A DNA stretch of 64,000 nucleotides from Cetobacterium sp. ZOR0034 (GTDB lineage Bacteria > Fusobacteriota > Fusobacteriia > Fusobacteriales > Fusobacteriaceae), in NCBI RefSeq assembly GCF_000799075.1, contig NZ_JTLI01000008.1, forward strand, positions 62,001 through 126,000. The letters are read 5' to 3'. Below the pieces are notes generated by a model. It did not search any database. It had not been told where the DNA came from and saw nothing but the letters and a program-made list of their open reading frames with translations. Both the position numbers and the translations under genes were made by a program. Shown here piece after piece: positions 15,974-22,031 of the stretch. Positions within the stretch are counted from its first letter, which is position 1, and the number at the start of each line of letters is the position of its first letter.

Positions 15974-16520
15974 AAGTGATGTGGTTTTCTTGCTTCCAGA
16001 AAACTTAAAGAAATATAAAAATTTGAATGCTGTTACCGTTGCATTTTCTGAAGTTTTAGAAAAAATAGAACCTGCAATAGAAACTTTGAATACCTATAAA
16101 GATATGGAGAAGTTAAATGATTCTATTCTAGATGAATTAGCATGGCAACATTATGTAGAGTTCTACAATCCAAATCTTACACAAGAGAAAAAAATAGACA
16201 TGATAAAAAAATCATATAAACATCATGTTAGAAAAGGAACCGCTGGAGCAGTAGAATCTGCGATAAAGACAATCGTTGGAGATGCAGAAGTTCTAGAGTG
16301 GTTTCATTATAATGGAGAGCCATTTACATTTAGAATTCTTTCTAGAAGTAAAGTTCCAGCTAACGGAGATATAACAGAATTAGTTAAATTAGCTAATGCT
16401 TTTAAAAATGCAAGGTCAACATTAGATGGGATAATATTTATTCAAAAAGACCACTCTTCTCTCAACACGTATGGTGTAGTTCATACGTATGGTAGGACAA
16501 TAAACAGGGAGGTGAAATAG
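15966..16520 (+). CDS. Tail protein I
   Basis: The 184-residue protein matches gpI of P2-like phages. LDELAWQHYVEFYNPNLTQEKKIDMIKKSY is followed by HVRKGTAGAVESAIKTIVGDAEVLEWF, both family hallmarks. It attaches the fibres to the baseplate. The chosen start is TTG 15966, eight bases after GGAGG at 15953-15957. An in-frame ATG at 15951 touches this site and lacks its own, so it is less likely. The gene overlaps the end of J. Confidence 0.9.
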   Translation: MNKSDVVFLLPENLKKYKNLNAVTVAFSEVLEKIEPAIETLNTYKDMEKLNDSILDELAWQHYVEFYNPNLTQEKKIDMIKKSYKHHVRKGTAGAVESAIKTIVGDAEVLEWFHYNGEPFTFRILSRSKVPANGDITELVKLANAFKNARSTLDGIIFIQKDHSSLNTYGVVHTYGRTINREVK

Positions 16521-17488
16521 TGGAAACAGGTGGAATAGTTATAACGAATAGCGGATTAAAGCTTTTAAATGATGCTATTGTTGCAGGAAAGGCTTTGCAG
16601 TTTACAACTATGAAAATAGGAACTGGAGAGCTTATAACAATAGAAACAGCTAAGACTTTAACAAAATTGATAAACACATATATGGACATCGGAATTACTA
16701 CAGTCACTAAAACTGAAAGTGGTGAAACTAATATCAGAGGAGCTTTTACAAATGAGGATTTCAAAACCTCTGTAAATATTCGTGAAGTGGGATTATTTGC
16801 AAAGATAGATGGAGTTTCAGAAACTCTATTTGCTTATGTAAATGATGGAACAGGAGAGATATATCCTCCAGGATCTTCAGGAAATATCGTAGAAAAAGCA
16901 AGAGACTTTATAATTGGAATCACAGATAATGTAACAGTGACAGTGGTTCTAGATAAAAAGAAAATCTATGTAACTATCTATGATTTAGAGGATGCTATTA
17001 ATGCTCATATGCACGATGATTACAAAAGGCTCATAGGTTCTAGATACAAAGGAACATATCAGAATGGAGAATATCTTTTAGGAGATGTTTATTTCAAAGA
17101 TGAAATAATATCTATAGGAGCAGAAGTTCCAGACAATTCTAGCCCAGGGCTTCAAAATTTTGTGGAAAAAACTTCAGAAAGAAGTTTAAAAACACTGAAT
17201 GGAGATGTGGAATCACCTTTCTATCTAAACATGCCACACTCAGCTCCAGTTGCTGGAGTAGAGCTAGAAAGTGGAGTTAGAATAGCTAGTGAAAACTACA
17301 CAGTTGGATTTAGCATTCATAAAGATATTAGAATAGTTACTGTAGAAGTTCAAAACTCTGCGGATCCTGCTCTAATATCTAGCATGATAGAGGATATAAA
17401 TTCTAGTCCAAAGTTAATAGAAGTAGAAAGTTTATATACACCAATTCACGATACAACAGAAGCAAATCCAAGCGGATTTGTATATTAA
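16520..17488 (+). CDS. Tail fibre protein (gpH-like N-terminus)
   Basis: This 322-residue protein starts at GTG, overlapping the stop of gene I. The N-terminal domain (about 1-150) shows ITNSGLKLLNDAIVAGKALQFTTMKIGTG and VNIREVGLFAKIDG, typical of fibre proteins that dock to the baseplate. The rest is less conserved and may form the shaft. The DGR target gene follows ten bases later, so this protein is probably the stalk that holds the variable tip protein. Confidence 0.85.
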   Translation: METGGIVITNSGLKLLNDAIVAGKALQFTTMKIGTGELITIETAKTLTKLINTYMDIGITTVTKTESGETNIRGAFTNEDFKTSVNIREVGLFAKIDGVSETLFAYVNDGTGEIYPPGSSGNIVEKARDFIIGITDNVTVTVVLDKKKIYVTIYDLEDAINAHMHDDYKRLIGSRYKGTYQNGEYLLGDVYFKDEIISIGAEVPDNSSPGLQNFVEKTSERSLKTLNGDVESPFYLNMPHSAPVAGVELESGVRIASENYTVGFSIHKDIRIVTVEVQNSADPALISSMIEDINSSPKLIEVESLYTPIHDTTEANPSGFVY

Positions 17489-17497
17489 GGAGGAATA

Positions 17498-18670
17498 ATG
17501 GCAATAATAGATTTAACAGTACCAACTAAGGCACATCTGCCTCATTTGAATCAAACTTACTCATCAAATTTTGACTCTGTTTACCCTTGGAAAGATATGG
17601 GTAGATGGGTTGCAGATACAACAACTGGAGCTTTAAAGTACAAGCTTCACAAAACTGACTCATCTAAGAAGACAGATGGCAGTGCTGCCAATCTAACTGG
17701 AACAGATGGAGACGTAATGGTTAAGATACCAGCTTACGCTTATAGAGTTACATATAGTTCAACTGGAAAGCCACGATATGAAGTAGATACCACTGTTCCT
17801 GATAAATACGGAAGTAACATAAGAGCAGGATTTAAGGTTCATCCTTATTTCAAGAATCCAGATGGCTCAGTTGCACCTTATAGAACAATGGGGGCATTCC
17901 CTGGTTATGTTGATGCAAATAATCAAATGAGAAGTATAGCTGGAGTTATACCTACAAGGTCTATAACACAAGCGGCTGCACTTGATAAATCTAGACAAGG
18001 TAGAAATACTAGATTTAGTATAGATTGCAAATATGGAATAGCAGCAGTAACACTTCTGTTCTTAGTTGAGTTCCAATCTCTTAATTCTCAAGATGTTGCG
18101 GGAAGAGGAAAAGTAGACTATGATTATCAAACTGTGGTTGATAATGGATATGTTGAACTAACGACAGGAGACACAATAGCTCTAGGAGATAGAACTGGTT
18201 ATTTAGAAGTTAGAGGAGAGACTAATGGTAAAACTTCAATGTCATACAGAGGTATTGAAGATTATTACGGTGGTATTTGGAGACATGTGACAGGATTCTA
18301 TGTTACTGATGAAGGGTATCATCACACTGGAGATTACACAAAGTTTGGAACAATTGGTTCATATACGTTGACTAAGGCTAATCCGCTTATGGGTGTTGAG
18401 GATGGTAAAGAGGTATCTGGATATGTTACAGGGATGGAGAGAATATCTGCTTTAGATTTTGATTTCCTGCCTAACGCAATCGGCGGAGCTGCCTCTACGT
18501 ACTATTGCGACAATTTCTGGTCGCACCGTAAAGGGCAAACCAATATCGCCCTGTTCGGTGGTTCTTGGTATTATGGCTCGGCTTGTGGCGTGTTCTGCTG
18601 GGCTTGGACTCATGTCGCTTCGAGTGCGCATGTGTATCTCGGTGCTCGGCTTGTGTTCCGTCCTGAGTAG
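17498..18670 (+). CDS. DGR-diversified receptor-binding protein (C-type-lectin-like)
   Basis: This is a 390-residue protein. The N-terminal half is probably a fibre-linked domain. The C-terminal region has the C-type-lectin/FGE-like pattern known from phage variable proteins, including SYRGIEDYYGGIWRHVTGFYV and the final strands with FGGSWYYGSACGVFCW. The last 42 codons fall in the variable repeat. Compared with the template, 12 codons differ, mostly Asn (AAT) changed to Tyr, Ala, Thr, His or Ser. This is the known result of adenine-directed mutagenesis and should alter the host surface structure that is bound. A good AGGAGG site precedes the ATG. Confidence 0.93.
   Translation: MAIIDLTVPTKAHLPHLNQTYSSNFDSVYPWKDMGRWVADTTTGALKYKLHKTDSSKKTDGSAANLTGTDGDVMVKIPAYAYRVTYSSTGKPRYEVDTTVPDKYGSNIRAGFKVHPYFKNPDGSVAPYRTMGAFPGYVDANNQMRSIAGVIPTRSITQAAALDKSRQGRNTRFSIDCKYGIAAVTLLFLVEFQSLNSQDVAGRGKVDYDYQTVVDNGYVELTTGDTIALGDRTGYLEVRGETNGKTSMSYRGIEDYYGGIWRHVTGFYVTDEGYHHTGDYTKFGTIGSYTLTKANPLMGVEDGKEVSGYVTGMERISALDFDFLPNAIGGAASTYYCDNFWSHRKGQTNIALFGGSWYYGSACGVFCWAWTHVASSAHVYLGARLVFRPE
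18546..18647 (+). repeat. DGR variable repeat (VR)
   Basis: This 102-bp block at the 3' end of the target gene aligns without gaps to 18799-18900. Of 21 adenines in the template copy, 14 are replaced here by C, G or T. Among the 81 other bases only one differs (C in the template at 18816, T here at 18563). Similarity fades just after the block: CTTATGTT in the template against CTTGTGTT here, with a one-base gap. This is as expected for the initiation-of-mutagenic-homing part. Confidence 0.96.
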
Positions 18671-18701
18671 CAGCGGCAGCAGCGGTTTTATTTTTTCAAA
18701 G

Positions 18702-18735
18702 TACCACTCTAGACTCCTAAAAGTCTAGAGTGGTA
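18702..18735. promoter_or_regulatory. 14-bp perfect inverted repeat downstream of VR
   Basis: The arms TACCACTCTAGACT (18702-18715) and AGTCTAGAGTGGTA (18722-18735) are exact complements around the loop CCTAAA. The repeat starts 31 bases after the stop of the variable gene. In known DGRs a DNA hairpin or cruciform just behind the VR helps target recognition, and this one is in a suitable place. The following bases are ATAAAATAGG, so it has no strong T-run and is a poor terminator. Confidence 0.75.
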
Positions 18736-18798
18736 TAAAATAGGTTTTTAAAATTGTGGGAGACCTACACATTATGACAATAGAAAAATATTAAATAT

Positions 18799-18900
18799 TC
18801 GCCCTGTTCGGTGGTCATTGGAATAATGGCTCGAATTGTGGCGTGTTCTACTGGAATTGGAATAATGTCGCTTCGAATGCGAATGTGAATATCGGTGCTC
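18799..18900 (+). repeat. DGR template repeat (TR)
   Basis: This is the invariant donor copy of the variable repeat, in the non-coding stretch between target gene and RT and on the same strand. It is rich in AAT triplets placed in the reading phase of the VR (nine Asn codons), so that adenine mutation changes exposed residues. Its GC content is well above that of the flanking DNA. The transcript covering it should be the RNA template for the RT. The rest of the 376-base gap (18671-19046) holds the hairpin and the RT ribosome site. Confidence 0.95.
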
Positions 18901-19046
18901 ACACTTATGTTGAGTGTATTAAAAAAACAGAATTAAATTTTAAAACCTTGCCTCTTGGCAAAACATAAGAGTACAAAAAAGTGTGTTGGTAGATGAAAAA
19001 TCGAAAACTCACGAAAACTTTCAACACAAAAGGAGATACTTGAACA

Positions 19047-20111
19047 ATGAAAAGGTTTGGTGATTTATATGATAGAATATCTAGCTACGATAATCTATTA
19101 AAAGCTCATATGATGGCACGTAAAGGAAAGGCTCATTATAGAGAAGTTAAGAAATTAAACGAAGACCCAGAGGGGTATTTAAAAAATTTAGAATGGCATT
19201 TAAAAAATGAAACTTACTATGTTACTGCTTCTGATTATAGAATTCAGAAAATAGTAGACAGAGGAAAGGAGCGAGAACTTAAAAAATTAAGTTACTACCC
19301 TCATAGAATCGTACAATGGGCAGTGATGTTACAGATAGAACACATACTAATAAAGCATTTCATACATAATACTTTTGCATCCATACCAGGAAGAGGTCTA
19401 CATGGAGCAGCTGATATTATAAAGAGAGATTTAAAAAATGAAGAAGCAACAAAGTATTGTTTAAAGATAGATGTTAAAAAATTCTATCCATCTATAGATA
19501 ATAAAATTTTATATAATCTTTTAGAAAAAAAGATAAAAGATAAAAGACTTCTAAGACTTTTGAAAATTATAATATTTTCAGTTGGAGACAAAGGTCAGCC
19601 AATCGGGTCGCTCTGGTCACAATATGCTGGAAATTACTATCTGAGTGGATTAGATCATCATATAAAAGAGAATTACAGAATTAAATACTATTATAGATAT
19701 TGTGATGATATTGTAATTTTACATAGTGATAAAAAATATCTGCACGAACTCAGAAAAGAGATTCAAAGATATATAAGTGAAAATTTAAATCTCACACTAA
19801 AAGAGAATTGGCAAGTGTTCCCTGTGAATATTAGAGGGATTGATTTTTTAGGTTATCGTTTCTTTAGAAATTATGCTCTTCTTAGAAAAAGAACAGCAAA
19901 AAAATTAAAAAGAAAAATAAGCAAGATTAAAAATAAAAGAGTTCTTAGTTTTACAGATGTCTGTTCATTGAACAGCTACCTTGGATGGACTAAACATTGT
20001 GATAGTTATAGATTTAACCAAAAATATTTTGAGCCGTTACAGGGAAAAAGTTATTACAATCACGAAAGTGAGATAAAAAATATAAAATTGGAGGTAAAAA
20101 AGTATGAATAA
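19047..20111 (+). CDS. DGR reverse transcriptase
   Basis: The 354-residue protein carries the motifs of DGR reverse transcriptases. KIDVKKFYPS holds the first catalytic Asp (about 142), QPIGSLWSQ (about 184-192) is the DGR form of the motif that reads QGxxxSP in group II intron enzymes, and YRYCDD (about 216-221) is the active-site pair. GRGLHGA lies near 115-121. There is no maturase or endonuclease domain. It copies the TR transcript with errors at adenines and the cDNA replaces the VR. AGGAGA precedes the ATG. No avd gene is adjacent. Confidence 0.96.
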   Translation: MKRFGDLYDRISSYDNLLKAHMMARKGKAHYREVKKLNEDPEGYLKNLEWHLKNETYYVTASDYRIQKIVDRGKERELKKLSYYPHRIVQWAVMLQIEHILIKHFIHNTFASIPGRGLHGAADIIKRDLKNEEATKYCLKIDVKKFYPSIDNKILYNLLEKKIKDKRLLRLLKIIIFSVGDKGQPIGSLWSQYAGNYYLSGLDHHIKENYRIKYYYRYCDDIVILHSDKKYLHELRKEIQRYISENLNLTLKENWQVFPVNIRGIDFLGYRFFRNYALLRKRTAKKLKRKISKIKNKRVLSFTDVCSLNSYLGWTKHCDSYRFNQKYFEPLQGKSYYNHESEIKNIKLEVKKYE

Positions 20112-20352
20112 TTATTCTTACGCACTAAATCCCAATGTCGTTACAGTTGGGGAAACAGAGTTACATGAAGGAGCTATTTTAAAAAGAAAGTTCTTACCAG
20201 GAACAGAGGACCAATATGAATGCAAATTAGTATTTTTCCCAGTTGCAATGGAGGAAAATGGTGTAGAGGTTGAAGAAGTGAAACCTTTTGTTATTAGAGT
20301 TAATAACCCTGATTGGGTAATGGAATTTATTCCAGAGGAGTACGAATTATAA
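20104..20352 (+). CDS. Unidentified small protein coupled to the DGR RT
   Basis: This 82-residue protein overlaps the last eight bases of the RT, with GGAGG eight bases ahead of its ATG, so its translation is probably coupled to the RT. The sequence is acidic and beta-rich (VVTVGETELHEGAILKRKF, then VKPFVIRVNNPDWVMEFI). I do not recognise the family. It is not the Avd accessory protein, which is a basic four-helix bundle of about 120 residues. It could be a fibre-related protein or a DGR partner; only position suggests either. Confidence 0.6.
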   Translation: MNNYSYALNPNVVTVGETELHEGAILKRKFLPGTEDQYECKLVFFPVAMEENGVEVEEVKPFVIRVNNPDWVMEFIPEEYEL

Positions 20353-20355
20353 AAA

Positions 20356-20856
20356 ATGGATAATATAAAAGAAAATCTCAACTATATCATATCTGAAGAG
20401 GATAATGATAAAATTAAATTTAACAAGCTCTACAAGAAGATGAATGACAACAGTATTAAACTTAATGTTGAGAGAGTTGATGTTACAAGCGTCACAGAGA
20501 CGCATGTGTTTGGTAATATCAGCTTGAACTTACAAGATAAGGTAAAAGTATACCCTTTCATTTGTAAGCCTTTAGAATTGAATACAGAGCTTCATAATAT
20601 AATTATAAATTTAAAAAAGTTAATTATATTTGAGGAACTTGGAATTGTTCCAACTGTTCCAACTGCTTCAGAGAAAAGTGCAGCAGGTGGTATAACAGAT
20701 AAACAAAAAGTTTTGTTAAGGGATAAATTGGAATCAAACTTAAAAGATACAATAAATTCTAAATTAACAGAATTTGGAGTATCTAGTATAGATGAATTAA
20801 ATAAACAACAAGCTTCGCAAATTATAGATATATTCCATAAAAGTTCTAGGAGGTGA
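20356..20856 (+). CDS. Unidentified protein with C-terminal helical domain
   Basis: This 166-residue protein starts three bases after the previous stop. The N-terminal 110 residues are mixed alpha/beta with no recognised motif. The C-terminal part (about 115-160) has GITDKQKVLLRDKL and SIDELNKQQASQIID. That pattern resembles short helical domains at the ends of some phage recombination and nucleic-acid-binding proteins. This resemblance is weak. It lies between the RT and the membrane proteins and is neither a tail nor a lysis protein by appearance. Confidence 0.6.
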   Translation: MDNIKENLNYIISEEDNDKIKFNKLYKKMNDNSIKLNVERVDVTSVTETHVFGNISLNLQDKVKVYPFICKPLELNTELHNIIINLKKLIIFEELGIVPTVPTASEKSAAGGITDKQKVLLRDKLESNLKDTINSKLTEFGVSSIDELNKQQASQIIDIFHKSSRR

Positions 20857-21370: not shown

Positions 21371-21770
21371 GTTTTATATATAATTTCTATCTGCCTGCAC
21401 TTAAAATGCACTCAAAAATTTTAAAAAACAGTAGAATGAACTATCGAAAAAAAGATAAAGTCAATAAAATCAAGCAAAATAAACTGTATAGAATAGAATA
21501 AAAAGTAATGGATATTACGGATATATATGAGTAATTCTTTAATTTCCCTTGAGTTTATCAAGGGTATTTATTAACTTAATAATATTGCTCTTAAAGTGTA
21601 ATTTTAAAATAAAATTTAATGAAAATTAGTGAATTTAAGAACGTTTATTTATGAGAGATAATACCATAAATTCATAAATAATTCAACCATTTTTTAACAT
21701 ATAGAGGATTCTAATTTTTTATATGCAATAAACAAACTTCAAGGTTTACAAAATATTTAATATAAAAAGT
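21371..21770. other. Gene-less AT-rich junction between prophage and selC
   Basis: No believable coding frame was seen on either strand. There is one short hairpin, CCCTTG/CAAGGG, around 21548-21566. The right attachment site of the prophage probably lies here or at the tRNA, but the left end is not in the window, so no repeat can be matched. Confidence 0.5.
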
Positions 21771-21937: not shown

Positions 21938-22031
21938 TGGCGGAAGCGTGTAGGAATCGAACCTACCAGCGATTTGACTCGCCAAGACAGTTTTGAAGAC
22001 TGCTGAGTACACCAGTAGCTCACCCGCTTCC
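21938..22031 (-). tRNA. selC: tRNA-Sec (UCA anticodon)
   Basis: The minus strand folds as a long tRNA of 94 bases including an encoded CCA. It has the acceptor start GGAAGCGG, an anticodon loop with CTTCAAA (anticodon TCA reading UGA), a long extra arm (TTGGCGAGTC...), TTCGATTC in the T loop, and the closing CACGCTTCC with G then CCA. This is the shape of bacterial selenocysteine tRNA, which is first charged with serine. TATAAT at 22045-22050 is a good -10 box, with only a weak -35. The gene fits the selA, selB and selD genes nearby. Confidence 0.97.

Follow-up and report, generated by a model that had tools for sequence, protein, structure and literature searches.

Diversity-generating retroelements (DGRs) usually come with a helper protein, Avd, and the locus described here makes testable the question of what, if anything, replaces Avd in DGRs that lack it. 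The window, i.e. the whole stretch of 64,000 nucleotides that was analyzed, is best read as carrying an intact-looking, complete Avd-less phage DGR in which target, variable repeat (VR), template repeat (TR) and reverse transcriptase (RT) follow in that order, a reading given a probability of about 95%. It is a DGR of a known kind, notable mainly for the missing helper protein and for its host group. No described example of a DGR in Fusobacteriaceae was found in the open literature searched.

Adenine-limited differences between template and variable repeat

The locus spans positions 17498 to 20111 of the window. Target, VR, palindrome, TR and RT were found in that order on the forward strand, the same succession that the original prediction had described with the palindrome as its hairpin. 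The features are listed below.

17498-18670, + strand: target ORF, 390 aa; DGR target gene, a tail-tip protein with a predicted C-type-lectin-like fold
18546-18647, + strand: VR, in frame at the 3' end of the target and 85% identical to the TR
18641-18657, + strand: IMH-like end of the VR, GGTGCTCGGCTTGTGTT; compared with TR positions 18894-18911, GGTGCTCACACTTATGTT, there are one gap and A/G differences
18702-18735, no strand assigned: perfect 14-bp palindrome with a 6-nt loop (CCTAAA), between the target stop and the TR, at +55 from the VR end
18799-18900, + strand: TR, containing 21 adenines
18944-19039, + strand: RT-17 RNA (Rfam RF03020), 45.0 bits against a gathering score of 40.4
19047-20111, + strand: DGR reverse transcriptase, 354 aa, with IGSLWSQ and YCDD

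A recount of the TR/VR pair returned the figures first claimed, namely 15 mismatches in 102 gap-free bases, with changes at 14 of the 21 adenine sites and at one of the 81 other bases. This concentration at adenines corresponds to a hypergeometric P of 2.7e-11. The changed adenines are read in the VR as C (seven sites), G (four) and T (three), while the sole non-adenine mismatch is a C to T difference at VR position 18563, beside a changed adenine. With only one non-adenine difference, the VR appears to have been overwritten recently in evolutionary terms. Ten of the TR adenines fall at codon position 1, 11 at position 2 and none at position 3, so that a stop codon cannot arise. With its TR adenines placed in this way, the locus is a clean Avd-less example. 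The adenine-bearing TR codons number 12, nine of them AAT and none convertible to a stop, and about 2.5e12 protein variants are encodable through the TR adenines. The TR is single copy in the 2.74-Mb genome, with no second VR and no third copy of the repeat elsewhere, and a search of viral contigs for the exact TR/VR pattern yielded no match and no close strain for comparison.

Past a 1-nt gap, TR/VR homology resumes at VR positions 18650-18657 (CTTGTGTT) and TR positions 18904-18911 (CTTATGTT), and many relatives have G at the VR end where the TR end has A. Judged from sequence, these homologous, non-identical 3' ends look like the expected IMH/IMH* pair and may function as one.

The original prediction proposed as a check that VR changes in relatives should be limited to TR adenines. 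In 69 non-redundant relative loci, picked without a filter for adenine, the changes were concentrated there, with 1424 of 1661 mismatches at TR adenines against an adenine share of 27.5% among all positions. For eight loci the fraction of mismatches at adenines was below 75%, and most of these are explained by the presence of two VRs, so that one VR was compared with another. The Fusobacteriaceae DGRs G056:C2, G017:C4 and G046:C3 resemble that of the window, with RTs 55-58% and targets 40-49% identical to its own. They share RT-17, an adenine-biased TR/VR pair and two small genes after the RT, but differ in TR sequence, each having its own TR/VR pair. Furthermore, the open frame that contains the G017 target is far longer (864 aa, compared to 390 aa in the window).

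Absence of Avd and the RNA preceding the reverse transcriptase

A complete DGR in the window was confirmed, as the original prediction had stated. Target, VR, TR, RT and RT-17 are all present, but this completeness does not extend to an avd gene. The bAvd profile PF22296 had no match in the genome of the window, in G017 or in G046, nor in the subset of the RT clade that was searched (21 viral records and two other phages), and all of its positive controls (BPP-1, G056:C1 and G021:C9) were found. The Avd-like family PF05635 (23S_rRNA_IVP) had no match in the genome of the window (G000). In G056, which has two DGRs, Avd was located at the other DGR and not at the relative of the window DGR.

As described in the literature, lineage 3 DGRs, with target-TR-RT order, lack avd, and about one quarter of DGRs are without an accessory gene (PMC7290462). 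The absence of Avd from the window agrees with the lineage 3 description. In the second of two phylogenetic trees, the window RT fell within a clade (support 100/99) that includes crAssphage LMMB and other RTs of the Avd-less group. This clade, the target-VR-TR-RT order and the lack of avd point to membership of the window DGR in the Avd-less lineage (crAssphage LMMB, lineage 3). The DGR of LMMB (PMC7290462) is similar in its TG-VR-TR-RT order, lack of avd, tail-collar fibre target and RT clade, with a TR/VR spacing of 270 compared to 253 in the window. It differs in that RT identity is only about 36%, the phage is crAss-like rather than a contractile-tailed prophage, and RT-17 is not reached in LMMB.

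An Avd-bearing DGR type also occurs in the same bacterial family, at G056:C1:109837-111520 (L012) and G021:C9:39691-41309 (L011). G056 thus has both types in one genome, and L012 carries RT-14 RNA.

The gap between TR and RT is filled by the structured RNA RT-17, which scores above its gathering score in the window and was over threshold in 13 of 16 members of the RT clade in one scan and 9 of 15 in another. Most relatives have RT-17 at this position too, and at the matching place BPP-1 has the Phage_DGR RNA RF03022 (L123:2750-2882). The BPP-1 spacer RNA recruits RT-Avd and primes cDNA synthesis (PMC12875486), and by analogy RT-17 may recruit the RT and prime cDNA in the same way. TR and the downstream RT-17 would be transcribed together, and the RT would prime on this RNA and make a cDNA copy of the TR in which positions opposite template adenines receive random bases. 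Through mutagenic retrohoming, with the IMH-like 3' end as anchor, this cDNA would then take the place of the VR, so altering the side chains of the tail protein at up to 12 codons on a C-type-lectin-like surface, with other residues fixed. Priming, retrohoming and present activity of the window DGR are proposed here by analogy with known systems.

The BPP-1 DGR (mtd/avd/brt) is similar to that of the window in its tail-tip target, C-terminal VR, adenine-specific differences, C-type-lectin-like fold, structured RNA between TR and RT, homologous RT, and a gene order that is the same except for avd. In contrast to BPP-1, the window has no avd, carries RT-17 in place of the Phage_DGR RNA, has a TR of 102 rather than 134 nt, and is without the 8-bp GC-rich stem with GRNA loop that follows the BPP-1 VR. 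Furthermore, the window RT belongs to a well-supported clade separate from that of BPP-1.

The hairpin of the original prediction survives in part. The palindrome is real and far stronger than chance (z = -5.0 compared to shuffles), but its place as a DGR component was not upheld. The DGR target hairpin has been described as a GC-rich stem of 7-10 bp with a 4-nt GRNA loop, located 4-34 bp after the VR (PMC3240598), and no such BPP-1-type hairpin (GC-rich stem, GRNA loop) was found downstream of the window VR. A significant downstream hairpin (p<0.05) was present in five of 73 VRs tested, the window's included, which is about the number expected by chance, and the 14-bp palindrome is absent from the DGRs of G056:C2, G017:C4 and G046:C3. 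The palindrome is not counted as part of the DGR, since it departs from the BPP-1-type definition and the hairpin is not common to relatives. Its identity as a conserved DGR cruciform was rejected on the chance-level count among VRs. It was also considered as an intrinsic terminator and set aside, as the terminator scan did not call it.

Target hairpin and Avd are both important in BPP-1 (PMC3240598, PMC12875486), and the locus could on these grounds be a fossil, once active and now silent through loss of one or the other. Consistent with this are the lack of a PF22296 or PF05635 gene in the genome and the lack of a BPP-1-type hairpin. A fossil is nevertheless unlikely, given that every DGR part is open and intact, that no Avd was detected in any of the RT-clade records searched and yet the clade has adenine-limited TR/VR pairs, that the same architecture is already known from DGRs without Avd (PMC7290462), and that the VR is a single non-adenine difference away from the TR.

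Target protein and tail module of the prophage

The prophage that contains the complete Avd-less DGR is integrated and contractile-tailed, with a length of about 41.9 kb and a 40-bp att repeat at either end, and the DGR lies towards its right end. The host is placed in the Fusobacteriaceae, as the closest named match to a host gene came from Ilyobacter polytropus and the next from Fusobacterium, which agrees with the fusobacterial-type prophage first proposed. Two further features define its setting.

16520-17488, + strand: tail (collar) fibre gene upstream of the target; Phage_tail_fib E 3e-4, phrog_7037 tail fiber E 5e-33
21513-21552, + strand: attR, 40-bp direct repeat; exact copy at G000:C8 41684-41723

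An integrase is encoded at about C8 41787-42833, beside the C8 copy of the repeat, and the prophage also encodes a CI-like repressor, replication initiator, terminase, portal, head, sheath and tape measure. In the stretches read, no gene for an endolysin was identified. The gene for tRNA-SeC (21938-22031, - strand) was considered as the att site and rejected in favor of the repeat at 21513-21552. This tRNA gene lies just right of the prophage and adjoins TusA/DsrE-type genes.

The genes before the target encode baseplate J, tail protein I and the tail fibre, and the target directly follows the fibre gene, as predicted. The target matched the tail protein family phrog_5302 (E 4e-60). Its AlphaFold2 model, for which the input was an alignment of 39 sequences (the window target and VR-bearing relatives), reached a pLDDT of 81.5 and a pTM of 0.87. 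The best PDB matches to this confident model were DGR variable proteins, i.e. TaqVP (5vf4, E 1.9e-11) and Mtd (1yu0, E 2.6e-5), with modest global TM-scores of 0.47 and 0.29, respectively. The predicted C-type-lectin fold of the target is well supported, in keeping with the C-type-lectin-like end ascribed to it beforehand. TaqVP, from a Thermus aquaticus prophage DGR (PMC6328139), is the best solved fold match and likewise has its VR at the very C-terminus, with AAY codons. It differs in showing 17% identity to the target in the structural alignment and in belonging to a DGR that carries avd.

In the relative L016, the VR domain is fused to the N-terminal domain of the fibre in one protein that matches phrog_5302 end to end (E 1.9e-147). 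This single fused protein argues for joint action of the fibre and target proteins of the window at the tip of the tail. By analogy with established DGR biology, the surface that varies is most likely the part of the contractile tail tip that binds the receptor. The varied protein might instead serve something other than receptor choice, such as attachment to debris of the host surface or a function in the lysogen, and most DGR targets are known by sequence only. Such a role is quite improbable for a protein that has the fold of Mtd, the BPP-1 receptor-binding protein, and whose gene belongs to the tail module, downstream of those for baseplate J, tail protein I and the fibre.

Reverse transcriptase and the small genes after it

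The RT contains IGSLWSQ at residues 186-192 and YCDD at residues 218-221, both as predicted, so that the DGR RT motifs [I/V/L]GxxxSQ and YxDD are present in an RT next to the TR. It matched phrog_1423 (E 1e-107), the PHROG into which BPP-1 brt also falls, and by far the closest PDB entry was 8ub7, 'Reverse transcriptase' (E 1.9e-38), which we take to be the BPP-1 DGR enzyme. Both trees place the window RT inside the DGR RTs and not with group II introns, the grouping that the original prediction had anticipated. In the second tree, support for the split between DGR and group II RTs is 100/100. The first tree, which was larger, gave weak support to a common origin of all DGRs, and this is attributed to long outgroup branches. 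The RT scored 100 bits against TIGR04416 (cut-off 300), group II/retron family models also gave 65 bits against a cut-off of 235, and cross-matches to NF038233 and the PADLOC RT models were weak.

A group II intron or retron identity was rejected on these scores and on both trees; despite the weak cross-matches to TIGR04416, NF038233 and PADLOC RT models, a group II intron, retron or defence (DRT) enzyme with an unrelated repeat nearby is virtually precluded by matches well below cut-off wherever a cut-off exists, by the 100/100 separation of the DGR clade from group II RTs, and by a DGR-type RNA and TR/VR pair directly adjoining the RT. The same genome contains a group II intron RT above the family cut-off at G000:C47:2910-4061 (L137), unrelated to the DGR.

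Returning to the Avd-less DGR, two small genes follow its RT.

20104-20352, + strand: ORF of 82 aa overlapping the RT stop; present after the RT in all four related DGRs
20356-20856, + strand: ORF of 166 aa, the next gene in the same module

Avd-less phage DGRs could conceivably use another helper, a small protein co-translated with the RT from a gene immediately downstream, which in many cases overlaps the RT stop. The candidate in the window would be ORF 20104-20352, perhaps together with ORF 20356-20856, and in a sister group the family C2 described below. The proposal is speculative and on balance rather unlikely to hold.

ORF 20104-20352 was found in four of 149 relatives, the same four that carry this DGR, with no match in phages or viral contigs. 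It is known from these four genomes, in which linkage to the phage module and linkage to the DGR are inseparable. ORF 20356-20856 occurs in the same four genomes, with two further weak or partial matches and no phage match, and it has a conserved C-terminal motif, ITxKQ...ASxIL/IID. In most cases across the RT clade, only a few bases separate the RT stop from the start of a small ORF, roughly 80-140 aa long. A single accessory family after the RT throughout the clade was considered and rejected, as these ORFs form several families, and no relationship between the family of the window (C4) and the others was detectable by hhalign. Family C1 is probably a tail-module gene, as 10 of its loci have enough upstream DNA and yet lack an RT.

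Family C2 comprises proteins of 93-105 aa with an FTGS motif (e.g. L274:3001-3294 and L240:3001-3288, with other loci in L233-L296). When C2 was searched independently, a DGR-type RT was located within 3 kb in 63 of 64 loci. The RT was on the same strand as C2 in 56 of 57 complete viral loci, and in most of them it immediately precedes C2 and overlaps it slightly. The remaining locus of the 57 is cut off. No convincing Pfam match was obtained for C2. The confident C2 model (pLDDT 88.8) is a beta-rich, OB-fold-like domain, and its PDB matches, all of them weak (E > 0.02), include many OB-fold nucleic-acid binders (RuvB-like, RPA, HIN, SSB). C2 is a candidate DGR accessory protein that could bind template RNA or cDNA.
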